From Pseudomonadota bacterium (GTDB lineage: Bacteria; Pseudomonadota; Alphaproteobacteria; GCA-2746255), in NCBI GenBank assembly GCA_040752895.1, contig JBFMHN010000003.1:62001-126000 (forward strand): a DNA stretch of 64,000 nucleotides, given 5' to 3'. The notes beneath the pieces are model-generated. The model did no database searches. It was not told the DNA's origin and saw nothing but the letters and a program-made list of their open reading frames with translations. Shown here in pieces: positions 903-18,583 of this stretch; the stretch's first letter is position 1; each line of letters begins with the position of its first letter. The position numbers and the translations under genes are program-made.

Positions 903-1376
903 GTGCCCAAGCGAAGGAAGAGATTTCTAAAAAAGGGAATTTTTTTGGTTTCCCTTTTTTTCGCGGTTACGGGCCTTGCCGCTGTCTATGCGGTGAAGAA
1001 CGAAATCGCGGGCTGGAGCATTGTTCCGAACATATCCCCCCAATCGCTGGCGCGGGAACTCGCCATTCGGCAGAAAGACATCGTGCTTTTTGACGTCAGG
1101 ACAGAGGCTGAATTTTTGGGAGGCCATCTAGCGAATGCAATTCGGGTTGATCCCGCCATCAAAGACGAGGCATTCCTGCGAAGGTATGGCGATCGACTTG
1201 CGGGAAAGACGGTGGTCTTTTATTGCAGAACAGGGGTGCGTAGCACGCGGCTTGCCTACCGCATCGAGGAAAATCTGAAGCGCATGCGCCTTGCGGAATT
1301 TTATAACCTTGCGGGAGGCGCCTACCGGTGGAAGGCCGAAGGGAATCCAATCGTGAAGGCAGATGTCGATGAATAA
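903..1376 (+). CDS. Membrane-anchored rhodanese-domain sulfurtransferase
   Basis: From a GTG at 903 the protein is 157 aa; longer in-frame starts exist back to 843, so the start is uncertain. A basic N-terminus (KRRKRFLKK) is followed by one membrane helix at about residues 12-31, so the domain probably faces the periplasm. The single rhodanese domain keeps the active-site loop CRTGVRS at 108-114, with Cys108 as the expected persulfide carrier, and the FDVRTEAEF motif at 63-71. The 3' end overlaps the possible early starts of the ArsM-like gene, so the two are probably cotranscribed. The physiological sulfur donor or acceptor is unknown. Confidence 0.8.
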   Translation: MPKRRKRFLKKGIFLVSLFFAVTGLAAVYAVKNEIAGWSIVPNISPQSLARELAIRQKDIVLFDVRTEAEFLGGHLANAIRVDPAIKDEAFLRRYGDRLAGKTVVFYCRTGVRSTRLAYRIEENLKRMRLAEFYNLAGGAYRWKAEGNPIVKADVDE

Positions 1377-1386
1377 GGAAAATGCC

Positions 1387-2562
1387 ATGAACGCCATAAA
1401 CGCGAACACAATGACGTTGGATAAAGACCGCGAGGTCTTGAGGCGTTACGCCGCTGCCTCGAAAGCCCGTGAGGAGGCGCTTTGCTGTCCGACGCAATAC
1501 GACACTGCTTACCTGAAGGTGCTGCCTCGGGAAATTCTCGAACGCGACTATGGCTGCGGCGATCCCACGCCTTACGTCCGCGAGGGCGAAACGGTCCTCG
1601 ATCTCGGCAGCGGCAGCGGCAAGACCTGCTACATACTTTCCCAGGTCGTGGGACCGAAGGGTTGCGTGATCGGCGTCGACTTCAACCCGGACATGTTGGC
1701 CTTGGCGGAAGGGTACCGGGCGGGAATCGCCCGGCGGATCGGGTGGGACAACGTCACCTTCCGAAGGGCGCGGATTCAGGATCTGCGGACGGACATCCCC
1801 CGTCTTGAGGCAAGAATCGCCGAGCATCCGATCGCAACCTATGCGGATTACGATGCCTTCGAGGCCTTTCGTCACCAGGCGATGGAAACGCCGTTGGTTG
1901 CGGACGACAGCGTGGACGTCATCGTTTCGAACTGCGTCCTGAATCTCGTCCATCCTGACGAGAAGAAAGACCTCTTTCGGGAAATGTACCGGGTTCTGAA
2001 AGTGGGCGGCCGCGTTGCTATTTCCGATATCGTCTCCGACGAGGAAGTGCCCGCCCATCTGCGGGAGGATGCCGAACTTTGGTCCGGCTGCGTTTCGGGC
2101 GCCTTTCAGGAAAGCGCCTTCCTGCGCGCCTTCGAGGAGGCGGGTTTCCACGGGATCGCGATCGAAAAGCGCGACGCGCAACCGTGGCGGACGGTCGAAG
2201 GAATCGAATTCCGCGCCATGACCGTGACCGCCCACAAGGGGAAAGAGGGCGCCTGCTGGGAGCGCCATCAGGCGGTCATCTACAAGGGGCCGTGGCGGGA
2301 GGTTCGGGACGACGATGGACACGTCCTTCGCCGTGGCGTGTCGACCGCCGTTTGCGACAAGACTTACCGGATCTTCACGTCCGAGCCTTACCGGAACGAA
2401 ATTTTTCCGGTGTCGCCGCGGGTGGATATCCCGCTTGAAAAAGCCACCCCTTTCGATTGCGCCCGCGCCGCTCCGCGTCATCCCCGGGAAACGAAGGGCA
2501 TGGGCTACGCCGCCACGACGGACGCCGCACCGGTCTGTGGGCCGGGAGGAAATTGTTGCTGA
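1387..2562 (+). CDS. ArsM-like SAM-dependent methyltransferase
   Basis: 391 aa. The ATG at 1387 is preferred because AAGGAAA precedes it; in-frame ATGs at 1363 and 1369 overlap the rhodanese gene. The class I SAM-binding motif LDLGSGSGKTCY is at 71-82 and the acidic strand GVDFN at 96-100. The two ArsM-type thiol motifs are SNCVLNL (Cys183) and SGCVSGA (Cys235), with further cysteines at 33-34 and 57, matching the arsenic-binding cysteines of arsenite methyltransferases. Residues 134-165 look like an insertion. The 110-residue C-terminal extension ends in CGPGGNCC. Arsenite, or a related soft-metalloid substrate, is inferred. No arsR, arsB or arsC is nearby. Confidence 0.78.
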   Translation: MNAINANTMTLDKDREVLRRYAAASKAREEALCCPTQYDTAYLKVLPREILERDYGCGDPTPYVREGETVLDLGSGSGKTCYILSQVVGPKGCVIGVDFNPDMLALAEGYRAGIARRIGWDNVTFRRARIQDLRTDIPRLEARIAEHPIATYADYDAFEAFRHQAMETPLVADDSVDVIVSNCVLNLVHPDEKKDLFREMYRVLKVGGRVAISDIVSDEEVPAHLREDAELWSGCVSGAFQESAFLRAFEEAGFHGIAIEKRDAQPWRTVEGIEFRAMTVTAHKGKEGACWERHQAVIYKGPWREVRDDDGHVLRRGVSTAVCDKTYRIFTSEPYRNEIFPVSPRVDIPLEKATPFDCARAAPRHPRETKGMGYAATTDAAPVCGPGGNCC

Positions 2563-3285: not shown

Positions 3286-4164
3286 ATGCACGAAAGTTCC
3301 CAGAAGTCTTTGAAATCCATGTTGCTTTCCGGCACCGTTCTTCCTCTGTTGGTGGGGGCCGGCGTCCTCGCCACCGGGATAACGGCCGGCGGCCTTTCGG
3401 CCCGGGCGGCGGATCAGCTCGCGGGCTATTACGACAGCAAGAAAAAGAACCCCTGCGCGGCGAAGAACCCCTGCGCGGCGAAGAACCCCTGCGCGGCGAA
3501 AAGCTGCAATCCGTGTGGTCCGTGTGGGGCCGCTGCCGCGGGGCCGAAGCTTTCGGACAAGGAAGCCGCCGCCCATTACGAGAAGAACCGCAAGGCGACG
3601 GCACAGGCCTATCAAAAATCCGGCCTTTCCTATACGTCGGAATACCAGAATTGGAAGCGCTACAACACGGTTCCTTATATCTCCGCCACCCATGGCGAGC
3701 GCTATGTAAACAACTACGCGAATGAAAAGGCTGCCGCGTATGGCAAGTTCGAAAAGGCGGGCAAGCTTCCCAAAGGTTCGATCCTTGTGAAGGACAGTTT
3801 CATGAGTACGGGGATGAAAGGCTGCCATCCCTGCAACCCGTGTGCGGCGAAGAACCCTTGCGCAGCGAGAAATCCCTGTGCCGCCAAGAACCCTTGCGCG
3901 GCAAAAAGTTGCAACCCATGCAACCCGTGCGGTGCCGCCTCGCAGTCCCCGATCGGGCCGCTTTTCGTCATGGAAAAGATGGGGGCCGGCTTCAACGCCG
4001 AAACCGGCGATTGGCGTTATACGATGGTGTTGCCGAACGGCCAAATCTTTGGAACGACAAACGGCAAGAATTCCGACAAAGTTGAATTTTGCGCGGCCTG
4101 CCACGCGGCGGCGGAAGACTATGATTATCTATTCTTCCTCCCTGAAGAGTATCGAAAAAGGTAA
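3286..4164 (+). CDS. Secreted cytochrome P460-type c-heme protein with two Cys-rich repeat tracts
   Basis: 292 aa, with AGGAGG before the ATG at 3286. A signal peptide (about residues 1-41, ending SARA) is followed by a Cys-rich tract at 55-80 with three tandem NPCAAK units. The P460-like domain starts near residue 88. A second tract at 180-215, with four NPCAAK-type units, is inserted in a loop of the domain. The domain resumes at GPLFVMEKM and ends with the c-heme motif CAACH at 269-273 and PEEYR. Lys169 in GSILVKDSF could be the heme cross-linking lysine of true P460 proteins. P460 cytochromes oxidise hydroxylamine and relatives bind NO; the substrate here is unknown. Fifteen tract cysteines suggest metal binding. 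DUF3179 follows 26 bp downstream. Confidence 0.8.
   Translation: MHESSQKSLKSMLLSGTVLPLLVGAGVLATGITAGGLSARAADQLAGYYDSKKKNPCAAKNPCAAKNPCAAKSCNPCGPCGAAAAGPKLSDKEAAAHYEKNRKATAQAYQKSGLSYTSEYQNWKRYNTVPYISATHGERYVNNYANEKAAAYGKFEKAGKLPKGSILVKDSFMSTGMKGCHPCNPCAAKNPCAARNPCAAKNPCAAKSCNPCNPCGAASQSPIGPLFVMEKMGAGFNAETGDWRYTMVLPNGQIFGTTNGKNSDKVEFCAACHAAAEDYDYLFFLPEEYRKR
3448..3501 (+). repeat. Three perfect tandem 18-bp repeats encoding NPCAAK
   Basis: Three in-frame copies of the unit aaccctgcgcggcgaag-type (18 bp each, AAC CCC TGC GCG GCG AAG), identical at the DNA level. They code for residues 55-72 of the P460-type protein. Identity at synonymous sites implies recent expansion or gene conversion. Confidence 0.9.
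3835..3906 (+). repeat. Four diverged 18-bp repeats encoding NPCAAK-type units
   Basis: Four in-frame 18-bp units code for residues 184-207 of the same protein. They match the first tract in protein sequence (one AAR variant) but differ at several synonymous positions between units, so this tract is older or under protein-level selection. Confidence 0.85.
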
Positions 4165-4190: not shown

Positions 4191-5195
4191 ATGCGACGAA
4201 AAGGAGGGGTTCCGCGGTTAGTAGTGGGTGCTTGCCTTCTTGGCATATTGTTTGCCTGTGGGTTGGCGCAAGACGCCGTTGCTAGCGATGTGAGAAAGTG
4301 GCGGGCGGAATGGCCGCGCACGGATTTTGCGAAAACCGCGATCGATTTTGGGGAAATCGCTTCCGGCGGGCCTTCGAAGGACGGTATCCCGGCCATTGAT
4401 AATCCAAAATTTGAGCCCATCGCCGCGATCAAGACGCTGGGTGAAGAGGAACCGGTAATCAGCGTAACGATCGGCGGTGAAACGCGTGCCTACCCTCTCC
4501 AAATCCTGATATGGCACGAAATCGTCAACGACCAGATTGGAACGGTGCCAATCACCGTCACTTACTGCCCGCTCTGCAACTCGGCGGTCGTCTTCGATCG
4601 GAGGTTGAAGGGCAAGACTCTTTCCTTCGGCACGACGGGCAAGCTCCGCCGGTCGGACCTCGTGATGTACGATCGCCAGACGGAAAGCTGGTGGCAGCAA
4701 TTTACCGGCGAGGCGATTGTGGGCGAGCTTACCGGCGAAAAACTTGCTTTTCTTCCCTCCCGGATCGAATCCTTTGCGCGATTTCGCGAGCATGCTCCGA
4801 AGGGAAGCGTGCTGGTCCCGAATTCTCCCCGCATGCGGGCGTATGGCCGCAACCCTTACGCCGGGTACGACGGCAGCCAGTTTCCATTCCTCTACCGGGG
4901 CGATCTACCGGAAAAGGTGGCACCGTTGGAGCGTGTCGTTTCGGTCGGCAAGGAGGCGTGGAGTCTGAAACTGTTGCGGGAACGGCGAAAGGTCGTTGTC
5001 GGGGATTTGATCCTTACCTGGGAACCCGGTCAGAACTCGGCGCTGGACGCCGAGCGCATCCGTGACGGCCACGACGTCGGAAACGTCACCGTGCAGCGGA
5101 AAACCGCGACCGGCCTGGAGGATGTCGTTCACGACATCGGTTTTGCCTTTGCCTATCACGCATTCCATCCCGATGGCGTGATCCACGCCGATTGA
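4191..5195 (+). CDS. DUF3179-domain secreted protein
   Basis: 334 aa, starting at ATG 4191. The N-terminal signal sequence runs to about residue 30 (cleavage near AVASD). The rest matches the DUF3179 family: GGETRAYPLQILIWHEIVND, then TYCPLCNSAVVFDR with a CPLC pair, FGTTGKLRRSDLVMYDR and WWQQFTGEA. The family is widespread but has no assigned reaction. It lies 26 bp after the Cys-repeat P460 gene and is probably in the same transcript, so a shared periplasmic redox or metal role is possible. Confidence 0.85.
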   Translation: MRRKGGVPRLVVGACLLGILFACGLAQDAVASDVRKWRAEWPRTDFAKTAIDFGEIASGGPSKDGIPAIDNPKFEPIAAIKTLGEEEPVISVTIGGETRAYPLQILIWHEIVNDQIGTVPITVTYCPLCNSAVVFDRRLKGKTLSFGTTGKLRRSDLVMYDRQTESWWQQFTGEAIVGELTGEKLAFLPSRIESFARFREHAPKGSVLVPNSPRMRAYGRNPYAGYDGSQFPFLYRGDLPEKVAPLERVVSVGKEAWSLKLLRERRKVVVGDLILTWEPGQNSALDAERIRDGHDVGNVTVQRKTATGLEDVVHDIGFAFAYHAFHPDGVIHAD

Positions 5196-6744: not shown

Positions 6745-7383
6745 CTATTTTGGGCGGTATTCTTCCGGGGTGTAGAAGATGTGATCGTCTTTCTCGGCCA
6801 CTTCGTGGCAATTCATACAAAAATCTATGTTCTTTGCCCCCGGTCCTTTCGTCGTGCCAAACAAGGTTCCCCCTGGCCAGATCATCGTGAAGCGCCAATC
6901 GCCGCTTGCTTGGTTGAAACCTTTCTCCATTTTTTCCATGATGAAAAGCGGCCCTACGCAGGCGATAACGCCGGGGGGGGTCTTTTCACCAAACACGACG
7001 TCACCGGTCAGGCAGGCGTCCGACACCATGAAGCTGTCCCTCACCAGGATGGCGCCCTTCGGCAACGGTCCGCCCTTTTCGAACAGGCCATAGCCGCTCG
7101 CTTTCTCATTCCCATAGGTGTTCACATAGCGGGCACCGTGCGTTCCGGAAAGGAAGGGGGCGGAGTTGAACCGCTGCCAGCCCATGTAGGTGGCCGCAAT
7201 GGGATTGCCGCCGGCCTGGTAGCTATCCACCATGGCTCGACGGAGCGCGTCGTATGTTTTCTCGGCTTCCTCCGGGGTCGCCGGCTCTTCCGCGCGCGGA
7301 GAGCCGGGAGTGGTTATGAGGAGCGTAAGTAAGAAGCCGGCATAAAATAGGAATTTTGACGACTTCAGAAAAACGGTACCCAT
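6745..7383 (-). CDS. Secreted cytochrome P460-type c-heme protein (ordinary form)
   Basis: 212 aa, with AGGAGG upstream of the ATG at 7383. A signal peptide runs to about residue 31 (SPRAEE). The domain is a clear paralogue of the Cys-repeat protein at 3286: shared blocks include THGARYVNTYGNEKA, LPKGAILVRDSFM, GPLFIMEKMEKGFN, GDWRFTM and the C-terminal CMNCH heme motif at 189-193 followed by PEEYR. In place of the Cys-rich insert it has a short loop with Cys124 and Cys142. The position of the possible cross-linking lysine is Arg115. A consensus FNR/FixK site lies about 100 bp upstream. A c-type heme is expected; the substrate is unknown. Confidence 0.85.
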   Translation of the reverse strand: MGTVFLKSSKFLFYAGFLLTLLITTPGSPRAEEPATPEEAEKTYDALRRAMVDSYQAGGNPIAATYMGWQRFNSAPFLSGTHGARYVNTYGNEKASGYGLFEKGGPLPKGAILVRDSFMVSDACLTGDVVFGEKTPPGVIACVGPLFIMEKMEKGFNQASGDWRFTMIWPGGTLFGTTKGPGAKNIDFCMNCHEVAEKDDHIFYTPEEYRPK

Positions 7384-7590: not shown

Positions 7591-8712
7591 CTAGAAATAA
7601 ATCTTCTTCTTGTACTCATCGGGAATATTAACAAGGTAAGCAGACCTCACGCCTTTTTCTTTCGTGATATCCTGAGCCTTGCCCTTGTCGTCGATTCTCG
7701 TGAATTTCCAGTCGCCGGTCGCGGCGTTGAAGCCTTTCTCCATCTTCTCCATGATGATCAATTCGCCAGCTTTCCAATTAGCGGAGGAACCCGTGCGGTT
7801 CGCATCGCCATGGAAGCTATCCAGCACCAGAATCGTTCCAGCCGGCATTCGGTCGAAGTTACCCCACTCCTCCACCTTGTCGTTCGAATAGAGGTTGATG
7901 TAGTAATCGCCTACGAAGGCGTCGGTATGAAAGGGAACGACATTATAGCGTTTCCATTCGGTGTATTCGGAAACGACCTCGTTGCCGGAAGTTTCCCACT
8001 TCTCGATCATCTTGAAGAGAACAGCGTGGTAGAGCGCATTCGCTTCTTTCTTGGTGAGTTTGTTCTGCGCTTCGAGAGCGGCCTTTTCTTCCGCCGACAT
8101 CAGGTCTTCGCGGCCCACGACTTGACCGCGCACGACCGGTGATTCAATGGCGTTGACGACCAGCGCGTCTCCTTCGCGGTGGACGACGATTTCCCAGTAA
8201 AGTCCGGTCGCGAAAAGCGACGTCACGGCAAGAACGAACAAATCATAGTTGAACGGCTGGCCGGGCCGCACGCGTTGCGCATGGTCTTCGCCAAGGATAT
8301 AGCGTTTGGCGAAACCTTCCGCGAGAAGGTCAACGCCCTCGACCTGGACATCTTTAATGATCTCGCCGTCCTTGAAGGGCCAGCCCTTCGGCGCATAGAA
8401 CGTGCCGGGGTTATCCACCGGGTCCGGGTAGAAGCGGTATTGATTGGGCTCTAGCTTTATGAAGTTCTGACGTGCGGGATTCCCGTCGAACGTCGAATTG
8501 ACGACATTGTATTCATGTCCGCCCCGCATGAACGCCGGTGGCGCGTCCTTTCCTTCGGCAATTTGTTCGAAGGGAAAGAAGGGTACGTGAACGGTTTCCG
8601 CCCTGGCAGATGCGCTCATGGCGAATGCGGCGGTCATCATGACGCCGGTTCCAACCATCAATGGAAGGATCGCTCCGGACGACAGAAGGGACTTCACAAA
8701 ACTTGAACGCAT
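7591..8712 (-). CDS. P460-like secreted protein without any cysteine
   Basis: 373 aa from the ATG at 8712 (GAGGAAA upstream); a GTG at 8727 is an alternative. The signal peptide (about 1-38, ending ASARAE) resembles that of the protein at 3286. Residues about 40-215 form an N-terminal region not seen in the two paralogues. Residues about 220-373 align with the P460 domain (SEYTEWKRYNVVPF, AGTILVLDSF, IIMEKMEKGFNAATGDWKF, IPDEYKKK). The protein contains no cysteine, so the CxxCH heme motif is gone and covalent c-heme attachment is impossible. The possible cross-link position is Leu297. It is either a heme-free derivative or a non-covalent ligand binder. Confidence 0.75.
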   Translation of the reverse strand: MRSSFVKSLLSSGAILPLMVGTGVMMTAAFAMSASARAETVHVPFFPFEQIAEGKDAPPAFMRGGHEYNVVNSTFDGNPARQNFIKLEPNQYRFYPDPVDNPGTFYAPKGWPFKDGEIIKDVQVEGVDLLAEGFAKRYILGEDHAQRVRPGQPFNYDLFVLAVTSLFATGLYWEIVVHREGDALVVNAIESPVVRGQVVGREDLMSAEEKAALEAQNKLTKKEANALYHAVLFKMIEKWETSGNEVVSEYTEWKRYNVVPFHTDAFVGDYYINLYSNDKVEEWGNFDRMPAGTILVLDSFHGDANRTGSSANWKAGELIIMEKMEKGFNAATGDWKFTRIDDKGKAQDITKEKGVRSAYLVNIPDEYKKKIYF

Positions 8713-8895
8713 GGTGTGTTTCCTCACTGTCCTTAAATTTCGATTTGAATATTTTACGTTTTTTGTTGCTAGCGCCCCCTAGGCACCTTGAATTGCTTAA
8801 CATATTTTCAACTGAACGGAAAATCCAGTTATTATCATCTGCCTTCTGCCGCCGACGCCTTTGGACTTAAGGCGCGCCAGTTTTTTTATAACATA

Positions 8896-8961: not shown

Positions 8962-9666
8962 ATGCAACGGAACGCCCGACATCCGATTTCCCGACCCCGG
9001 CTTAAGGCCATGCAAGCGGCCGGGCGGGAAGTCCTCGAATACCACCGCCTTCTCGACAAGACGGACGACAATATCGTCGGCGAATTGCTTCGCGGCCAGG
9101 GCACTTTCTATCAATGGAACCACTACCCCGAGGGGGACGCCTTCGATGCGGAAACCCATTCCCAGTACTACTACCATGCGCACCGAGGGGATCGGGAGGA
9201 ACACGGCCACTTTCACACTTTTCTACGGCCGCAAGGCATGCCGGCGGGCATCCGGCCGGCGCCTTTGTCCGATCTTGCACTGCCGGAGGGCGAGAACGCG
9301 GCCCTCAGTCACCTGGTTGCCATTGCCATGGACGACTATGGCTATCCGATCAGCCTTTTCACCACGAATCGCTGGGTGACGGGCGAGGTTTGGTACGCGG
9401 CGAAGGACGTTTGCCGGATGGTGAAAGTCTTCAAAATGGATCAGGCGCGCCCCTCCTTGCCGGTTAACCGCTGGATCACGGCCATGCTTCGATTCTTTGA
9501 GATGGAAATCTTCGATCTCGTTGCACGCCGAGACGTTTCCGTCCGCGCGTGGCAGGAAAAATATCCGGATCGAAACGTTTACGAGGATCGGGCGCTCGAG
9601 ATCACTTCCGAGATGCCGATTTCCGTGGAGGACAGGCTCCGCCAAATCGAAGAGATGCTCCGATAG
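8962..9666 (+). CDS. DUF6969-like conserved hypothetical protein
   Basis: 234 aa from ATG 8962, with no signal peptide. Recognisable conserved stretches are GTFYQWNHYPEGDAFD, THSQYYYHAHRGDREEHGHF and VAIAMDDYGYPISLFTTNRW. The His/Tyr-rich centre (residues about 50-85) could hold metal ligands. The call to DUF6969 rests on memory of the family pattern and no function is known. It stands alone on the plus strand, convergent with the cytochrome c gene. Confidence 0.6.
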   Translation: MQRNARHPISRPRLKAMQAAGREVLEYHRLLDKTDDNIVGELLRGQGTFYQWNHYPEGDAFDAETHSQYYYHAHRGDREEHGHFHTFLRPQGMPAGIRPAPLSDLALPEGENAALSHLVAIAMDDYGYPISLFTTNRWVTGEVWYAAKDVCRMVKVFKMDQARPSLPVNRWITAMLRFFEMEIFDLVARRDVSVRAWQEKYPDRNVYEDRALEITSEMPISVEDRLRQIEEMLR

Positions 9667-10266: not shown

Positions 10267-11355
10267 CTAGCTGCCCATCCGGCGGTAGCGGAAGGGTGGG
10301 GGCTCGCGAAGGGTCTCGCTTGCCGCCAGCTCTTGCATGCGGTGGTGCTCCGGGGAAAGTTCGCAGACCGGGTCGGTGTTGGCGGCGTTGCCCGTCAGCA
10401 GCAGGGCTTGGCAGCGGCAACCGCCCCAGTCGACCTCGCGCCGGTCGCAGGACCGGCAGGGTTCCGGCATCCAGCCGGTGCCGCGGAAACGCCGGAAGGC
10501 TCCCGATTCTTCCCAGATGTCGGCAAGGCTCTTCTCCCGGACGCTCTCGAAACGAAGGTCCGGGATCGTCTCGGCGGCGTGGCAGGGGAGCGCCCTGCCC
10601 GAGGGGGTGACATTCAGGAATTGGTTGCCCCACCCGCCCATGCAGGCCTTCGGGTATTTTGCGTGATAGTCCGGCGGAACGTAATCGATGGCGAGCACGC
10701 CGGTCAGGCGTTCCTTGGCCTCGGCGGCGACGGCGTTTGCCGCTTCGAGCTGCTCGCGATCGGGCAGAAGTGCTGCTCGGTTGGCGATAGCCCAGCCATA
10801 GTATTGGGCATGGGCAATCTCCAGCCGGCCGGCGCCAAGCTCAAGAGCCAGGGCGATCACCTCGCTTAAGCGCTCCAGATTTTGGCGATGGAAGACGCAA
10901 TTGATTGTAAGCGCAAGGCCCGCCTCGCGCACGCGACGGGCGGCCTTGAGCTTCTTTTCATGCGCACCGGGAGACCCCGCGACGCGATCGGCGGGCCCGG
11001 CGGTTGCGTCCTGAAGGCTTAGCTGCACGTGTTCGAGGCCGGCTTCGGCAAGGGCCGTCACCTTTGCTTCGTCCAGGAGGATGCCGGAAGTGATCAGATT
11101 CGTATAAAGTCCAAGCGCGCTTGCATGTCGAACAAGGTCCGAAAGGTCCTTGCGAAGAAGTGGCTCGCCCCCGGAAAAATGGACCTGATAGACGCCAAGC
11201 GAAGCCGCTTCTTCCAGCACGCGGCGCCATTCCTCCGTCGCAAGCTCGGTTTTGGCGTCCTCGAGGGCAACCGGGTTCGAGCAATAGGGGCACCGCAGCG
11301 GGCAGCGATGCGTAAGTTCCGCCAACAAGGCAAGCGGTGGCGAAGGTGGCTTCAT
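10267..11355 (-). CDS. pqqE: PqqA peptide cyclase (radical SAM)
   Basis: 362 aa from the ATG at 11355, whose ATGA overlaps the pqqD stop. PqqE makes the Glu-Tyr carbon-carbon crosslink in PqqA, the first committed PQQ step. The radical-SAM motif CPLRCPYC is near residues 18-25, HFSGGEPLLRKDL follows, and the C-terminal SPASM cysteines include CMGGWGNQFLNVTPSGRALPC and CRSCDRREVDWGGCRCQ. Last gene of pqqABCDE. Confidence 0.97.
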   Translation of the reverse strand: MKPPSPPLALLAELTHRCPLRCPYCSNPVALEDAKTELATEEWRRVLEEAASLGVYQVHFSGGEPLLRKDLSDLVRHASALGLYTNLITSGILLDEAKVTALAEAGLEHVQLSLQDATAGPADRVAGSPGAHEKKLKAARRVREAGLALTINCVFHRQNLERLSEVIALALELGAGRLEIAHAQYYGWAIANRAALLPDREQLEAANAVAAEAKERLTGVLAIDYVPPDYHAKYPKACMGGWGNQFLNVTPSGRALPCHAAETIPDLRFESVREKSLADIWEESGAFRRFRGTGWMPEPCRSCDRREVDWGGCRCQALLLTGNAANTDPVCELSPEHHRMQELAASETLREPPPFRYRRMGS

Positions 11356-11639
11356 GGGACGAGGATCCCTTCGTCTGCGAGGCCTTGCAGAAGCTCCAGA
11401 ACGTCCTTTTCGATCGTCTTGCGCGAAGCTTGGTAGCGCTCGGCGAGTCCCTCGATCATCTCGCCCACCGAAACCTTTCCATCGCACAGCTTCAAGACTT
11501 CGATGGCGATCTCATCCGGCACGTAAAGCCGCTCGGGCGCCAGCACGACCCAGCGGTCGCGCTTTTCATCGAAACGAAGCCGGACGTGGGGGGTGAGCCG
11601 AGGCTTTGATTCGCCCTCCAGCAGGTGCCGCCCGTTCAT
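11352..11639 (-). CDS. pqqD: PQQ biosynthesis chaperone PqqD
   Basis: 95 aa, starting at the ATG at 11639 that overlaps the pqqC stop (ATGA). PqqD binds the PqqA peptide and presents it to PqqE. Typical features are PHVRLRFDEKRDRWVVLAPE near the start, LKLCDGKVSV in the middle, and a C-terminal DVLELLQGLADEGIL. The longer in-frame start at 11735 lies inside pqqC and is not used. Confidence 0.96.
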   Translation of the reverse strand: MNGRHLLEGESKPRLTPHVRLRFDEKRDRWVVLAPERLYVPDEIAIEVLKLCDGKVSVGEMIEGLAERYQASRKTIEKDVLELLQGLADEGILVP

Positions 11640-12376
11640 GGGTTCTCCTGCGGCCGGAAGGCGCCGGGGGGCACCTTGCCGGGTTCGACATAGGCGTGAT
11701 GCAGCGCGTCGAGCTGCGCCCATAGCATGTTGCACTTGAAGCGCAGCGCCTGCAAAACACCGGCTTGCGTTTCCGCCGTTCGCGCTTCCCGCTTGACGTA
11801 GTCGAGGGTGAAGTCGGCGTCCCGTGTCGCCTGGTCCAGACGCTTGCGGAAGTAGGCAAGCGTTGCCTCGCTGACGAAGTCATAATGTTCCAGCATCCCG
11901 GCGATACGCTCGCGGTGAATTTTCGGCGCGAAGAGTTCTGTAAGCGAAGAGGCGATTCCTTCCAGAAGCGGCCGTTCGCGAACGAAGTGGACGTACGCCT
12001 CGACGGCGAACTGCGTGGCCGGCAAGACCCCTTTCATGGCGACAACGTCCTCGCGGGCTAGGTCAAGCCCGTCCGTAAGTTTCAGCCAGCGCGCGATGCC
12101 GCCCTCGCGTTCCGGCGTGCCGTCGTGGTCCTCGATGCGTACGCGCCAGGTGCGCCGCAAGGCCGGGTCCGTCATCCGGGAAAGTAAGGTGGCGTCCTTG
12201 ATCGGGATATGCGCCTGGTAGCAGTAGCGGTTGAGGGCCCAAGCCTGCACCTGGCCTTTCCGCAGTTTTCCGCCGTGGAGAAGGGCGTGGAAGGGATGCT
12301 TGTCATGGTAACGCTCCTCCCCGATCGCGCGAAGCGCCGCTTCCAGCGCCTCCGGTGTCAAAGGGGGGCCGCTCAC
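11636..12376 (-). CDS. pqqC: Pyrroloquinoline-quinone synthase
   Basis: 246 aa, starting at a GTG at 12376 that overlaps the pqqB stop (GTGA). PqqC is the cofactor-free oxidase that closes the ring and performs the final oxidation to PQQ. Family hallmarks present are YHDKHPFHALLHGGKL at the N-terminus, NRYCYQAHIPIKDA, and the helical EHYDFVSEATLAYFRKRL region. The length is normal for PqqC (about 240-250 aa). Confidence 0.97.
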   Translation of the reverse strand: MSGPPLTPEALEAALRAIGEERYHDKHPFHALLHGGKLRKGQVQAWALNRYCYQAHIPIKDATLLSRMTDPALRRTWRVRIEDHDGTPEREGGIARWLKLTDGLDLAREDVVAMKGVLPATQFAVEAYVHFVRERPLLEGIASSLTELFAPKIHRERIAGMLEHYDFVSEATLAYFRKRLDQATRDADFTLDYVKREARTAETQAGVLQALRFKCNMLWAQLDALHHAYVEPGKVPPGAFRPQENP

Positions 12377-13308
12377 AGCCGGATCTCCATCCCGTCTTGG
12401 GCCACTTCCCAGCCTTCCCCCGTTGCGATCGCGCGTTCGGGCGAATCCTCTATCAGCACGGGGTTCGTGTTGTTGATATGCACGAAGACCTTCCGTTTCA
12501 CCCGTAGCGGTCGGAAGGCAGCAAGGGTTCCGTCTTCGCCCGAGATGCTCATATGACCCATCCGTTTGCCCGTCTTGGCGCCGACCCCGGTCGCGATCAT
12601 TTCATCGTCTTGCCAAAGCGTTCCGTCGAAGCAGACGAGCGGCGCTTCGCGCAAGCGTTCCGCCAGCCCCTCCGGGAAGGCGGCGCAGGCGGGGATGTAA
12701 TAAAAATAGCTGTCCTCGGCCGCGGATGCCACTCGCAGGGCGATCGTGTCTTCCGGCACGCTTCCGAAATTGGGTCCGGCTTTTGGGTTCTCCAGATAAA
12801 GTGCGACCTTGCCGGGGACGGTGAAGGCCTCGACCACGAGGCCGGAAGGCTCGCCCGCGGCATTCTCGAGCGGCATCGGCAAATCCAGGGTAAAGGTTTT
12901 CCGCTGGACGAACGCTGGGTTGAGCGCATGGAAAACGCGGTTCGCGGAAAGCGTCTCCTGCACGCGGTTCGTCGCGTAAAGGCTTAAAGGCTCGCTCTCG
13001 CGAAGGGTCAGAAGTCCTGCGATATGGTCAATGTCGGCGTTCGTCACGAGGACGCCGCCGATTGGGCTTCCCCGCTTTTTTTCGTCCGCCGGGTGCAGGG
13101 CAGGGTTGTCGGTTATCTGCTGGCGAAGGTCGGGCGAGGCGTTGAGAAGGAACCATGGGCCCTCATCCGCCCGCACCGCCAAGGAAGACTGCGTGCGCGC
13201 ACGCACCCTTTGATCGCCTAGGCGCGCACGCCGGCAGATCGCGCAATTGCAGTTCCACTGAGGGACGCCGCCGCCGGCCGCCGATCCCAGGACGAGAATC
13301 TGCAACAC
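12373..13308 (-). CDS. pqqB: PqqB, metallo-beta-lactamase-fold PQQ biosynthesis protein
   Basis: 311 aa. The start is a GTG at 13308 with an AGGAGG ribosome-binding site 7 bp upstream. The N-terminus LQILVLGSAAGGGVPQWNC with CNCAICRRA is diagnostic. TNADIDHIAGLL is the metal-binding loop, degenerate compared with HxHxDH as in other PqqB. PqqB is thought to hydroxylate the crosslinked tyrosine and to aid PQQ release. Second gene of the pqq operon. Confidence 0.97.
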   Translation of the reverse strand: MLQILVLGSAAGGGVPQWNCNCAICRRARLGDQRVRARTQSSLAVRADEGPWFLLNASPDLRQQITDNPALHPADEKKRGSPIGGVLVTNADIDHIAGLLTLRESEPLSLYATNRVQETLSANRVFHALNPAFVQRKTFTLDLPMPLENAAGEPSGLVVEAFTVPGKVALYLENPKAGPNFGSVPEDTIALRVASAAEDSYFYYIPACAAFPEGLAERLREAPLVCFDGTLWQDDEMIATGVGAKTGKRMGHMSISGEDGTLAAFRPLRVKRKVFVHINNTNPVLIEDSPERAIATGEGWEVAQDGMEIRL

Positions 13309-13367
13309 CCGACGCCTCCTATTTTGGGTGGTTCCTTGTGGATCGTGTAAAACTTAAAGGGGTGAGA

Positions 13368-13451
13368 TCAGCCTTCCGCGCAGGCGTACGCGTTGATCTC
13401 AAGGCCGATGCGGATCATTTGGATCCGAGGCTTTCTCCACCGCTTCCGCAT
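13368..13451 (-). CDS. pqqA: PQQ precursor peptide PqqA (27 aa)
   Basis: A 27-codon gene found by reading the minus strand upstream of pqqB: ATG at 13451, TGA at 13370-13368. The C-terminal part is IGLEINAYACAEG. Glu18 and Tyr22 have the required E-x-x-x-Y spacing and sit in the GLEINAYACAE motif typical of PqqA. The N-terminus MRKRWRKPRIQ is basic, with the usual early Trp and Lys-Pro. AAAGGAAA precedes the start. It lies 60 bp upstream of pqqB, the normal operon order. The peptide is cut and remodelled into PQQ itself. Confidence 0.93.
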   Translation of the reverse strand: MRKRWRKPRIQMIRIGLEINAYACAEG

Positions 13452-13564
13452 ATCCGTTTCCTTTGGCCGTGTTATCTTTTCGTTTCCGACAATTCCATGC
13501 AAAGTATGACCTTTCCACGCCGAGGGAGGCAAGGGCTTTGTCGAAGGCGAGAAAGGGCGTCGTA

Positions 13565-14566
13565 ATGCCGCTATGGCAAACCATTTGGAAACCGGCCGCG
13601 GCCTTTCTTGCCAGCGCGTTCGCGTTGCTTGCCGCCCATGCCGCCGCCGCGGAAAAGGCTTCGCCGATCCGCCTTGCCGTGCTCGAATATGGCTCCCTTG
13701 CCTGGGAACTTGAGGTGATCGCGCACCACGGGCTTGACCGGAAGCACGGATTCGCGCTTGAGCGTGTGGGCCTTGCCGGCACCCAGGCCTTGCAGGTGGC
13801 GCTTCAGGCGGGCCGGGTGGACGTCGTCCTTTCCGACTGGCTATGGGTTTCCAGGGTTCGTCAGGGAGGGTCCGACGTCACCTTTGCACCTTATGGCGCC
13901 TGGGCGGGCGGGCTTGTCGTACCGGCGGACTCTTCAATTGGGTCTTTCGCCAGCCTTCGCGGTCGCCGCCTGGGCGTGGCGGGTGGGGCGATCGACAAGA
14001 ACTGGCTTCTTTTGCAAGCCGTGGCCGCCAGGGAGGAAGGGATGCAACTTGCCGAGGCAGGGGACGTCGTCTTTGGTGCCCCGCCGCTTTTGCGATCGGA
14101 ACTGGAAGCCGGCCGTGTGGACGCCGTGCTTACCTATTGGCAGGACGTGGCGATGCTGGAAGCGAGCGGATTTCGTAAACTTACCGACACCGAGGCGGTT
14201 GCGAAGCGCTTGGGCATTGATCGCCGTGTCCCCTTTCTGGGTTACGTCTTTTCGGAAAGCTGGGCGGAGCGAAATTTCGAGGCGGTGCGGGGTTTCCTCG
14301 CCGCCTCCCGCGAGGCGAAGGCGATCCTTCGTGAATCGGATTCGGAATGGGACCGGATCGCCCCGCTTACCCGGGCGACAAATGCGACCCAGCTTCATGC
14401 CGTGCGGGATGCGTATCGACGGGGCCTTCTCGAACACTGGGGAAGCGAGGAACGCCGATCCGCCCATGCTCTCTTCCAAATTCTTTCGGAAATCGGCGGG
14501 AAGGCGGTGACGGGAGGGTACGACGCCCTTGCCGCGGGAACGTTCTGGGAAGGGGACCGTTTTTGA
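13565..14566 (+). CDS. ABC transporter substrate-binding protein, NitT/TauT (SsuA) type
   Basis: 333 aa. The ATG at 13565 begins a signal peptide (about 1-29, AAHAAAAEK). The body follows the NMT1/SsuA-like periplasmic binding fold: IAHHGLDRKHGFALERVGL, QALQVALQAGRVDVVLSDWL, LRGRRLGVAGG, and ELEAGRVDAVLTYW. It is the first gene of a three-gene importer (binding protein, permease, ATPase) divergent from pqqA. The ligand is unknown. Linkage to PQQ suggests an alcohol, organic acid or a PQQ-enzyme-related nutrient. Confidence 0.88.
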   Translation: MPLWQTIWKPAAAFLASAFALLAAHAAAAEKASPIRLAVLEYGSLAWELEVIAHHGLDRKHGFALERVGLAGTQALQVALQAGRVDVVLSDWLWVSRVRQGGSDVTFAPYGAWAGGLVVPADSSIGSFASLRGRRLGVAGGAIDKNWLLLQAVAAREEGMQLAEAGDVVFGAPPLLRSELEAGRVDAVLTYWQDVAMLEASGFRKLTDTEAVAKRLGIDRRVPFLGYVFSESWAERNFEAVRGFLAASREAKAILRESDSEWDRIAPLTRATNATQLHAVRDAYRRGLLEHWGSEERRSAHALFQILSEIGGKAVTGGYDALAAGTFWEGDRF

Positions 14567-15318
14567 ACAGGACCCGGTGGAAGGAAATTGGCCTACGACT
14601 TGCTTCCTTTCTCCTCTTGCTTCTGGCCTGGGAGCTGGGCGCGATGGCGCTCGGCAGCCGCCTCCTGCCGCCGCCGGGTGCCGTTCTTTTCGTCCTGATC
14701 GAGGGCACGCAGAGCGGCGAAATTCCCCACCACATCGCCATTACACTTGCCCGCGTGGCGGCAAGCTTCGTGCTGGCCATGGCGATCGGGTCCGCTATCG
14801 GCATTGCAATGGGGCGTTCTCCTCTGCTTGACCGCCTGTTCGACAGTTGGCTCGTTATTTTCCTTAACGTGCCGGCGCTGATCGTCATTCTGTTGGCCTA
14901 TGTTTGGTTCGGGCTGGTCGAGGCGTCGGCGATTCTGGCCGTGGCGGTGAACAAGATTCCGAACGTCGCGGTCACCTTGCGCGAGGGAGCCCGCGCCCTT
15001 GATCGCGACCTCCTCGAAATGGCGCGGAGTTTCCGTCTTGGTCCCTTCCGGATGCTTCGCCATGTCATCCTGCCGCAACTTTCACCCTATTTTCTGGCGT
15101 CCGCCCGATCGGGTTTGGCGTTGATCTGGAAGATTGTCCTCGTCGTCGAGCTGCTTGGGCGCAGCGACGGCGTCGGCTTCCAGCTGCACCTCTATTTTCA
15201 GTTGTTCGATGTCGCTTCGATCCTCGCCTACACGGTCGCTTTCATCGCCATCGTGCTGGTAATCGAAATGGTGGCGTTTCGCCCGCTTGATCGTCTGGCG
15301 TTCCGGTGGCGGCGATGA
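14563..15318 (+). CDS. ABC transporter permease, NitT/TauT type
   Basis: 251 aa. The best start is TTG 14563, which overlaps the preceding TGA; the next ATG falls inside the first membrane helix. There are about six membrane helices. The EAA loop EGARALDRDLLEMARSFRLG, followed by GPFRMLRHVILPQLSPYF, marks the binding-protein-dependent permease fold (BPD_transp_1, SsuC/TauC group). It is translationally coupled to both neighbours. Confidence 0.88.
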   Translation: MNRTRWKEIGLRLASFLLLLLAWELGAMALGSRLLPPPGAVLFVLIEGTQSGEIPHHIAITLARVAASFVLAMAIGSAIGIAMGRSPLLDRLFDSWLVIFLNVPALIVILLAYVWFGLVEASAILAVAVNKIPNVAVTLREGARALDRDLLEMARSFRLGPFRMLRHVILPQLSPYFLASARSGLALIWKIVLVVELLGRSDGVGFQLHLYFQLFDVASILAYTVAFIAIVLVIEMVAFRPLDRLAFRWRR

Positions 15319-16073
15319 GCGGGATCGAGGTTGCTGTTCGTACGAAACGGTTTCCCGACCCCGACGGCAAGGGGATGCGCGAGATCCTGGGCGGTCTTCG
15401 CTTCGCCGCCGGCGAAGGGGAATTCTTGGCGATTCTTGGCCCCTCCGGCTGCGGCAAGACAACGCTTCTCAATCTGATCGCCGGCCTCGATCCGGCTTAC
15501 GAGGGAAGCGTGCGGTTTTCCACCGCTTCCGGCAGGGCGTCCCCGGTCATTGGCTATGTCTTCCAGAGCCCGCGCCTGCTGCCGTGGCGGACGGCCCGCG
15601 AGAACGTGACGCTCGCGCTCGAACGGCCCGAAGCGAAGGCGGATCTTATCGACTCGCTGCTTGAGGACGCCGGCTTGACGGCGTTCCAGGATGCCTACCC
15701 GGAAAAACTTTCCCTCGGCCAATGTCGACGTGCGGCGATCGTGCGGGCCTTTGCCGTCGAGCCGGATTTGCTTTTGATGGACGAACCCTTCGTCTCTCTC
15801 GATGCGCCGACGGCCGGGCGGCTTCGCCGCCTTCTGCTGGAAATCTGGGGGGCAAGGCCAACCGCGGTGCTTTTTGTCACCCATGACACGGACGAAGCGA
15901 TCGCGCTTGCCGATCGCGTGCTTGTCCTCTCTGGATCGCCGGCTGCCGTGCTGGCGGACGTTGCGATTACCGCGCCGCGATCCGAGCGCGCCGACCCCAC
16001 CGTCCTTGCAACGTTCCGAAACCTGCTTCTCGAAGCCCGTAACGCGGGTTCCGAGGGCGGCGAAAGGGCTTAA
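15315..16073 (+). CDS. ABC transporter ATP-binding protein, NitT/TauT type
   Basis: 252 aa from the ATG at 15315, in an ATGA overlap with the permease stop; a GTG at 15306 is possible. Walker A is GPSGCGKTT, the Q loop is VFQSPRLLPWRTARENV, and Walker B is LLLMDEPFVSLDA. The signature is LSLGQCRRAAIVRA, with LGQCR in place of the usual SGGQ/SGGM start. The H loop is FVTHDTDEAI. It resembles SsuB/TauB. Its stop overlaps the convergent permease stop by four bases (TTAA). Confidence 0.9.
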   Translation: MSGIEVAVRTKRFPDPDGKGMREILGGLRFAAGEGEFLAILGPSGCGKTTLLNLIAGLDPAYEGSVRFSTASGRASPVIGYVFQSPRLLPWRTARENVTLALERPEAKADLIDSLLEDAGLTAFQDAYPEKLSLGQCRRAAIVRAFAVEPDLLLMDEPFVSLDAPTAGRLRRLLLEIWGARPTAVLFVTHDTDEAIALADRVLVLSGSPAAVLADVAITAPRSERADPTVLATFRNLLLEARNAGSEGGERA

Positions 16074-16873
16074 ATCCCCGTTTTCCTCTGCATCATGCCG
16101 CGCGCCGGGTTATAGCCGAGGACGGCAAGCGCCAGGAACGCGGCAAAGACGGCGGCGGTAACGCCAATTGCCGCCAGGTTGGCTTCACCGTAAAGGGCGA
16201 AGCGAATCATTTCGACGGCGTGGGTGAAGGGGTTGAAGCGACAGATCTCGTAAAGCAGGACGCTCGATTCGCGCATCTTCCAGAGTGGGTAAAGCGCGGA
16301 CGACAAAAAGAACATCGGAAAGATAACGAAGTTCATGACACCCGCGAAGTTTTCGAGCTGGCGGATGGCGGAGGAAAACAACAAGCCAAGCGCGCCAAGC
16401 ATGAGGCCCGACAGGACAAGGGCGGGCAATAGGGCAAGGTAGCCGAGGGCTTCCGCCTCGATCCCGAAGAACCAGGCGATGCCGAGGAAAGCATAGACCT
16501 GCAAAATAGATACGAAAGTCCCGGCCGCCAGCTTGCAGACCAGCAGGTACCAGCGGGGAAGCGGGCTGATGAGCAGCGTGCGCATGCTGCCCATTTCCCG
16601 GTCGTACACCATGGAAAGGGAGCTTTGCATCCCGTTGAAAAGCTGGATCATGCCGATGAGGCCGGGAACGATATAGACCTCGTAGGTGATATAGGTCTCA
16701 TAGGGAGGGAGGATGGCGAGCCCAAGTACGGCCCGAAACCCCGCCGCGAAGACGAGAAGCCAGATAAGGGGCCTGACCAGCGCGGCGAAGAAGCGTTCAC
16801 GCTGGTGTACGAAGCGCAGCGCCTCCCGGGTAAGGATGCCGAGGAAGCAGCGTAGGTAATGGCCACCGTTCAT
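16070..16873 (-). CDS. ABC-2 type permease of the PQQ alcohol-dehydrogenase-associated system (PedC-like)
   Basis: 267 aa with about six membrane helices. The protein starts at ATG 16873, overlapping the ATPase stop (ATGA). It resembles ABC-2 type permeases: REALRFVHQRERFFAALVRPLIWL at the N-terminus, MVYDREMGSMRTLLISPLP as the coupling region, and FFLSSALYPLWKMRE near the end. In gene context with the three genes upstream it matches the PedC/LutF-type permease of PQQ-linked ABC systems. In Pseudomonas putida and Methylorubrum these have been implicated in lanthanide uptake. The direction of transport and the substrate are not evident. Confidence 0.82.
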   Translation of the reverse strand: MNGGHYLRCFLGILTREALRFVHQRERFFAALVRPLIWLLVFAAGFRAVLGLAILPPYETYITYEVYIVPGLIGMIQLFNGMQSSLSMVYDREMGSMRTLLISPLPRWYLLVCKLAAGTFVSILQVYAFLGIAWFFGIEAEALGYLALLPALVLSGLMLGALGLLFSSAIRQLENFAGVMNFVIFPMFFLSSALYPLWKMRESSVLLYEICRFNPFTHAVEMIRFALYGEANLAAIGVTAAVFAAFLALAVLGYNPARGMMQRKTGI

Positions 16874-17628
16874 GCCGCCGTTTCCTTAGCTGTTAGTTTC
16901 GTGAACGCTTCCTCGATCGTACGACCACCCGCCGCTGCCGTTACTTCCGCGCCCGCGCCCTGCGCCCGGACCCGGCCTTCGTGCAGCAGAACGATCCGGT
17001 CGTTCGCCGCGATCTCGTCGATCAGGTGGGTTGCCCAGAGGACGGCGATGCCTTCTTTTTCGCTAAGCCGGTGCACGTGCTCGACGATGGCGCGGCGCGT
17101 CGGCACGTCAAGCCCGACCGTCGGTTCGTCCAGCAACAAAAGGCGCGGCTGATGAAGAAGGGCACGGGCGATCTCGACCCGTCGCCGGTGTCCGCCGTTC
17201 AGGGCGCGGACCTTTTCGTTCTGGCGGGCAGCCATGTCGAAGCGGCGAAGCTCGATTTCGATCCGCGCCAGCGCCTTCTTCTTTTGCATTCCGCGAAGGG
17301 CGGCATGGTAGAGAAGATTCTGGCGCACCGTCAGATCGAGGTCGAGCGTGGGTTGCTGAAAAACCACTCCCATGGCGGCAAGGGCCGGCAAGGGATCCTT
17401 GCGAAGGTTGAAGCCGTTCACCCAGATGGCGCCCTCTTGCGTGTCGTAAAGCCGCGTGATGAGGGAAAAAAGCGTCGTTTTCCCGGCGCCGTTCGGGCCC
17501 AAAAGCACGGTGAAGCTGCCCGGCGCGATGGCAAAATGGATTTTTTCGAGCGCCGGCCTTGCGCCGTAACGGAAGTCCACCCCTTCGACGTAAAGGGCGG
17601 CGTCTTTATTTGCGTTAAGGTCCGACAT
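16870..17628 (-). CDS. ABC transporter ATP-binding protein of the PQQ-associated system (PedB-like)
   Basis: 252 aa from ATG 17628, overlapping the beta-propeller gene by 14 bp. Walker A is GPNGAGKTTLFSLI, the Q loop VFQQPTLDLDLTVRQNL, the signature LNGGHRRRVEIARAL (an unusual NGGHRRR in place of SGGQ) and Walker B LLLDEPTVGLD. The NGGHRRR variant is what is seen in ATPases of PQQ-dependent alcohol-dehydrogenase systems. It pairs with the permease at 16070. Confidence 0.86.
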   Translation of the reverse strand: MSDLNANKDAALYVEGVDFRYGARPALEKIHFAIAPGSFTVLLGPNGAGKTTLFSLITRLYDTQEGAIWVNGFNLRKDPLPALAAMGVVFQQPTLDLDLTVRQNLLYHAALRGMQKKKALARIEIELRRFDMAARQNEKVRALNGGHRRRVEIARALLHQPRLLLLDEPTVGLDVPTRRAIVEHVHRLSEKEGIAVLWATHLIDEIAANDRIVLLHEGRVRAQGAGAEVTAAAGGRTIEEAFTKLTAKETAA

Positions 17629-18583
17629 CGACCCCCCAAGGGAAACGGCCCGTTGGAACGGATTTGCGCACCTTCAGCGTTGCGACATCGATGAAGGAAA
17701 CGTCGTTGCTGGCGCCGTTCGTCGTATAGAGCCACTTCTCGTCCGGCGAGAAGGCGAGATTCCAGACCCGGCTTCCGACCAGAAGATATTTCTCCACCTC
17801 GTAGGTTTTGCGGTTCACGACCGCGACGTGGTTCGCGGGGCCAAGGGCTATGAAAGACCTTTCCCCTTTCGCGCCATGGGCGATGCCGACCGGCTGGACT
17901 TTTGCGTTTTCGATTCCGGGAATCGCGAAGGTGATCCTTTGCGTAATCTTGCGGGAGGCGGCGTCAAGGACGCTCACGCTGCCGCCGATTTCGCTGGAAA
18001 CCCAGACTTCCCTCGAATCCGGCGTGAAGGCCGCCCGCCGCGGGCGGCTGTCCACCGGCACGTTGCCGATAACGGTGTTTGTTTTCGCATCGATCCAGTG
18101 GGCCATGTTCGTTGTCTCGGACGTGGCGACCACCCACCGTCCGTCCGGGCTTGCGCCAACGCCTTCGGGCTCGACGCCGACCGGTATCTCGGCCACCGTC
18201 TTGCGCTTCTCCACATCGACGACGGTGACCAGGTTGTCGTCTTCGTTCGAGACATAGAGAAGCCGGCCGTTCGGATGCAGGGCAAAGGTTTCCGGGTTTT
18301 TTCCGGAAGGCAAGCTATGCGTGACTTTCCCGGTCTTCAAATCCAGGGCCTGGATCGCGTGGTCGTCGCTGGCGCAGATATACAGCGTCTTCTTGTCATG
18401 GCTGAGGACGATCCCGCGCGGGCGATGGCCGACGGTGACCGTTTGCTTCAACACACCTGTCTCGCCATCGAGGATGGCAATCGTGTCGTCCTTTTCGTTC
18501 GAAACGTAAACGGTAATGGCCGCAGCGGGTGAAACGAAAAGCGCGAAGGCAAGGTTCGCCACGATGGCCGGAAGGTGTTTCAT
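17615..18583 (-). CDS. PQQ-associated YVTN beta-propeller periplasmic protein
   Basis: 322 aa with a signal peptide to about residue 22 (SPAAA). The rest is a seven-bladed YVTN-type propeller with repeating VYVSNEKDDTIAILDGETG, LYICASDDHAIQALDLKTGK and LYVSNEDDNLVTVVDVEKRK blades. Such propellers accompany the ABC genes of PQQ-dependent alcohol metabolism. The role is unknown; periplasmic scaffolding or ligand handling is a guess. Operon order is binding protein, propeller, ATPase, permease. Confidence 0.87.
   Translation of the reverse strand: MKHLPAIVANLAFALFVSPAAAITVYVSNEKDDTIAILDGETGVLKQTVTVGHRPRGIVLSHDKKTLYICASDDHAIQALDLKTGKVTHSLPSGKNPETFALHPNGRLLYVSNEDDNLVTVVDVEKRKTVAEIPVGVEPEGVGASPDGRWVVATSETTNMAHWIDAKTNTVIGNVPVDSRPRRAAFTPDSREVWVSSEIGGSVSVLDAASRKITQRITFAIPGIENAKVQPVGIAHGAKGERSFIALGPANHVAVVNRKTYEVEKYLLVGSRVWNLAFSPDEKWLYTTNGASNDVSFIDVATLKVRKSVPTGRFPWGVDVGP

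Follow-up and report, generated by a model that had tools for sequence, protein, structure and literature searches.

Work on P460 proteins has chiefly concerned their role in hydroxylamine oxidation by nitrifiers and methanotrophs. With the described cytochromes P460 (NeP460, McP460 and NsP460; PF16694), the protein reported here shares the fold, the CXXCH motif, the lysine that cross-links the haem and a conserved Trp and Gly, but it differs in carrying two tracts of NPC repeats and, apparently, a Phe at the position of the distal carboxylate. In this it appears to resemble NsP460, which possesses the Lys without the distal carboxylate, and which does not oxidise hydroxylamine (PMC11928373). 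The cytochromes c'-beta (McCP-beta and NeCP-beta) also have this fold and an uncharged residue at the carboxylate position, and NeCP-beta has a VMEK strand motif in common with our protein; in contrast, they contain Phe or Met at the cross-link position where our protein has Lys. The bufferins and other copper peptides made by MNIO enzymes resemble the present system in being Cys-rich, exported and encoded beside a candidate modifying enzyme, although the Cys motif of bufferins differs from the NPC repeats. A bufferin/MNIO system was rejected for this organism, as no MNIO (DUF692, PF05114) was found in the genome by a search that was positive in a Caulobacter control.

The gene lies at 3286–4164 of the window, by which we mean the whole 64 000 nt stretch of DNA that was analysed. 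The features relevant to this report are as follows.

3286..4164, plus strand: exported c-type haem protein of the P460 fold, 292 aa, with two NPC-repeat tracts
3286..3408, plus strand: likely signal peptide, residues 1–41 (...LSARA/ADQ), assigned by eye from the sequence
3448..3525, plus strand: N-terminal NPC tract, residues 55–80, six Cys
3790..3792, plus strand: Lys169, the equivalent of McP460 Lys78 by alignment
3823..3930, plus strand: loop NPC tract within the P460 domain, residues 180–215, nine Cys
3964..3966, plus strand: Phe227, likely distal carboxylate position, from alignment of the VMEK motif to NeCP-beta
4090..4104, plus strand: CAACH haem c attachment motif, residues 269–273
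4191..5195, plus strand: DUF3179 protein with a CPLC motif, a recurrent neighbour at NPC loci
6745..7383, minus strand: P460 paralogue without a tract, Arg at the Lys position, 26-residue loop with two Cys (124 and 142)
7591..8727, minus strand: P460 paralogue, CXXCH lost, Lys replaced by Leu, no Cys
8962..9666, plus strand: DUF6969 protein

The ORF is preceded by a good ribosome site (ggatcaggaggatagg-ATG) and specifies 17 Cys, of which six lie in the N-terminal tract (57, 63, 69, 74, 77 and 80), nine in the loop tract and two in CAACH (269 and 272); our count thus agrees with the preliminary description, which had placed 15 Cys outside the haem motif in two tracts. Seven NPCAA[KR] units are present, compared with at most one in any of 20 000 shuffles of the protein, and this result, together with the presence of the repeats in congeners, rules out an origin by chance or artefact. 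The earlier assignment to a P460-type c-haem protein was borne out by a Pfam match to Cytochrome_P460 (1e-9), by the CAACH motif, whose CXXCH form is also found in other haem-bearing relatives, and by a Foldseek search in which the core of the AlphaFold model matched McP460 and the cytochromes c'-beta (best 8e-7, probability 1.00). The top structures (9hrk, 6hiu, 7ead and 7s5o) scored about 1e-6, and identity to solved members was ∼14–20 %. The core is modelled with confidence (142 residues at pLDDT ≥ 90) and both NPC tracts are disordered (pLDDT < 50). No metal-binding family was matched by the Cys tracts amongst Pfam and NCBIfam profiles, and a plasmid search with the protein returned no match.

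As the preliminary description had stated, the second tract breaks the P460 domain at a loop, residues 180–215 being flanked by two domain strands, GSILVKDSF, which holds Lys169, and GPLFVMEKM, which holds Phe227. Lys169 aligns with the haem cross-linking Lys78 of McP460, and Lys occupies this position in 88 of 96 relatives. The second strand matches the AVMEK of NeCP-beta, whose Ala is residue 109; this residue is in turn the equivalent of the distal carboxylates Glu96 of NeP460 and Asp102 of McP460. As such, Phe227 likely represents the carboxylate position, an assignment that comes from the short VMEK motif, free MAFFT alignment being ambiguous here; the conserved Glu230, three residues further on, is an alternative. 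By the same motif match, Phe is found at the equivalent position in 90 of the 96 relatives. In McP460, residues 78 and 102, the equivalents of Lys169 and Phe227, are both in the haem pocket; as the loop joins these two positions, the tract sits between them and would come close to the haem on its open distal side. With Lys retained and Phe likely at the carboxylate position, the protein is predicted to form a P460 chromophore but not to act as a hydroxylamine oxidase. Of the proposed 'c-haem enzyme', therefore, the c-haem part stands, whilst the Phe at the catalytic carboxylate position makes the enzyme part doubtful.

Two P460 paralogues, which cluster together in the tree, are encoded 2.6–5.5 kb downstream. 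The first (6745–7383) retains CXXCH and, in keeping with the preliminary description, has just two Cys at the corresponding loop; it bears Arg at the Lys position, and a Lys-to-Arg change inactivates NeP460 (PMC6427953). The second (7591–8727, minus strand) has an N-terminal extension of ∼220 residues and is kept in congeners. Neither the Arg of the first nor the loss of the haem motif from the second featured in the preliminary description. Elsewhere in the window, an ArsM-like methyltransferase is encoded at 1363–2562 (plus strand; NF040538, 380 bits, below the cut-off) that ends in GPGGNCC, and in three or more of the four genomes of the genus such a gene is found close to that for the P460 protein. 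The region 10267–18583 is suggestive of PQQ-dependent alcohol oxidation, as it contains PQQ biosynthesis genes together with those for an ABC transporter and a beta-propeller protein associated with PQQ.

The prevalence of the tracts was assessed amongst 96 distinct P460 domains, mostly from Alphaproteobacteria, collected by a DNA-pattern scan and from a class-wide sample of 385 genomes; as the pattern scan enriches for tract carriers, the fractions given here describe this collection and not nature. An N-terminal tract (≥ 3 NPC) was present in 59 of the 96, whilst the loop was short (10–12 residues) and free of Cys in 85. NPC repeats in the loop were limited to five domains, namely those of all four genomes examined from the genus together with L236 (genome G509), which comes from a different family. 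Thus, armed P460 proteins are common within their group, whereas insertion in the loop is rare: homologues do not usually have repeats at this site (five of 96). The N-terminal tract is normal for these alphaproteobacterial P460 proteins, and repeats of this kind are found on many exported proteins, so that the fusion is not an isolated one. Because most relatives do without the loop arm, it cannot be required for basic haem function. A literature search that lay largely outside subscription journals found no papers on NPCAAK, DUF6969 or P460 proteins with Cys-rich repeats; within the literature searched the armed fusion is undescribed, and no function for it was found, as had been supposed.

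The insertion in L236 overturns the idea that loop repeats are confined to the genus. Its loop repeat (NPCATENPCVANPCATNPC) is like its own N-terminal tract and unlike the loop tract of 3286–4164. In the tree of P460 domains the five carriers require two origins; a topology test did not reject a single origin (p-AU 0.264). Within the 3286–4164 protein, the arrangement NPCAAK-SCNPC-PCGA occurs in both tracts, and this resemblance makes copying within the gene likely. The units of the N-terminal tract are nearly identical at the DNA level, so that this tract looks recently expanded or copied. Across three congeners, comparison of the loop-tract units with one another gave 52 synonymous and five nonsynonymous changes (the unit pairs not being independent), whereas random single changes in a loop unit are expected at ∼12 synonymous to 42 nonsynonymous; this excess argues that the protein repeat is selected and is not mere expansion of a DNA repeat. 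The number of loop Cys varies between congeners (9, 8, 7 and 6), as does their spacing, and ranges from nine to four over the five loop-tract proteins; such variation is easier to reconcile with a loose multi-thiol arm than with a single fixed metal cluster.

The P460 proteins are one of several carriers of these repeats. The DNA-pattern scan found NPCAAK tracts in at least 119 stretches from Pseudomonadota, Rokubacteria, Nitrospinota, Acidobacteria and others. Small exported proteins (e.g. L006, L156 and L121) carry the same units after the signal peptide and have no haem domain, one such stand-alone protein being encoded in the genome that holds 3286–4164. SoxA/TsdA-like cytochromes (PF21342) combine the same tracts with a c-haem and often lie beside DUF6969, but they belong to an unrelated family and their tracts are terminal rather than in a loop; in L095 (2917–3549), L090 (6256–7152) and many others the tracts stand at both ends. 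The slot adjoining DUF6969 that P460 proteins fill in Alphaproteobacteria is taken by these cytochromes in Beta- and Gammaproteobacteria. DUF6969 is the commonest neighbour, found at 53 of 118 NPCAAK loci at a median of 220 bp and within 1.5 kb at 45 loci, both amongst the matches listed. In an independent phylum sample, the NPCAAK pattern occurred in 11 of 20 genomes with DUF6969 compared with 18 of 379 without (Fisher 4e-9, a P value that serves only as a guide, relatives not being independent). The family has invariant His/Tyr-rich residues (HYP-D-D-Q-YYH-H-E-GHFH, as in HYP..YYYHAH..EHGHFH) and is modelled very confidently (pLDDT 94); the model found no fold match in the PDB better than E 0.5, and comparison of DUF6969 with MNIO gave no match by Pfam or fold search. 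Further recurrent neighbours are DUF3179 (whose family includes selenoprotein members with UxxC), a YeeE-like transporter, an FGE-like protein, an ECF sigma factor and DUF302. In addition, an exported and perhaps cupredoxin-like family (ELTQTPCQFLE ... YSCPLNPTPDY) recurs beside NPC genes (L117 4609–5091, L066 6258–6722 and L079 4194–4739), for which no Pfam or NCBIfam match and nothing convincing in a PDB search was found. An unlikely but more sweeping proposal is that NPC-repeat exported proteins and DUF6969 together make up a two-part system, so far undescribed and present in several phyla; DUF6969 would mature or load the Cys repeats, P460 proteins in Alphaproteobacteria and SoxA/TsdA-like cytochromes in Beta- and Gammaproteobacteria would each have taken the repeat as an arm, and the genus would have put that arm in the haem-pocket loop.

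The reading that we prefer, at a probability of about 0.42, is that 3286–4164 specifies a P460-type haem protein with soft-metal-binding thiol arms that is not a hydroxylamine oxidase. It would be a periplasmic c-type protein with the P460/cytochrome c'-beta fold, from which two flexible arms bearing multiple thiols extend; the arms belong to the widespread NPC-repeat class that also exists as separate small exported proteins. Lys169 would cross-link the haem to give a P460 chromophore, and, given Phe at the carboxylate position, the haem may bind NO or another small ligand, or else pass single electrons. The thiols may hold soft metal ions of the periplasm, with Cu(I) as first choice and As(III), Hg(II) and Zn(II) as further candidates, and the loop arm would deliver them to the haem at its open distal side; the identity of the metal and any coupling between metal and haem are guesses. 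The metal-binding arm suggested in the preliminary description is plausible, and in favour of this reading some loci have neighbours that deal with thiols or soft elements, namely DUF3179 with CxxC, the ArsM-like methyltransferase (in this genus), DsbD, thioredoxin and MerA-like reductases. Counting against it, the number of loop Cys is variable, no copper transporter or chaperone was found as a recurrent neighbour of NPC loci, and the tract thiols could be present as disulfides in the oxidising periplasm. A specific link to arsenic, suggested by the ArsM-like gene of the genus and by arsenosugar glycosyltransferases at one further locus (L108), was set aside as involving too few loci.

Many of the same neighbours would also suit a relay of thiol redox or sulfane sulfur, in which Cys would alternate between the thiol, disulfide or persulfide states and exchange electrons with the haem. 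That the same tracts flank SoxA/TsdA-like cytochromes, a sulfur redox family, is consistent with such a role, as are the YeeE/TsuA-like sulfur transporters, DUF3179 with CxxC, DsbD and thioredoxin amongst the neighbours and a rhodanese gene upstream in the window. Nevertheless, sulfur and thiol neighbours occur at a minority of loci only, no Sox operon partners were seen, and many tracts have a regular CxxxxxC spacing and no CxxC pairs, and we regard this relay as possible though rather unlikely.

A more doubtful alternative makes the tracts substrates of DUF6969, with Cys modified in the cytosol before export, much as in the MNIO/bufferin systems, and the modified residues then binding metal. 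The linkage and genome co-occurrence of DUF6969 and NPCAAK described above favour it, the invariant residues suggest a metal-dependent active site, and signal peptides are present on NPC proteins whilst none is apparent by eye on the DUF6969 protein. An enzyme role for a family whose fold matches nothing in the PDB is, however, only putative; in Azospirillum lipoferum, for example, DUF6969 is present with no NPC gene beside it, its gene here is 5 kb from 3286–4164 with opposed genes intervening, and the genome is without MNIO. Least probable amongst these readings is that the tracts are passive spacers, that is, low-complexity linkers produced by slippage of DNA repeats and tolerated at the protein surface. 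The nearly identical DNA of the N-terminal units, the varying tract length amongst relatives and the disorder of both tracts in the AlphaFold model would all be expected of a spacer, but synonymous change far exceeds nonsynonymous change in the loop tract, the NPC repeat is maintained across phyla, and Cys is a costly residue for such a purpose.

Taken with the preferred reading of soft-metal thiol arms, these findings bring forward a large alphaproteobacterial branch of P460 proteins in which the Lys is kept, the carboxylate is apparently absent and thiol arms are usual, a combination that makes hydroxylamine oxidation probably not the function of the branch. The loop variant places many thiols beside the haem pocket within one chain, so that coupling of metal or thiol to haem is directly testable, and the linkage to DUF6969 offers a starting point for the study of a conserved family that has no assigned function.
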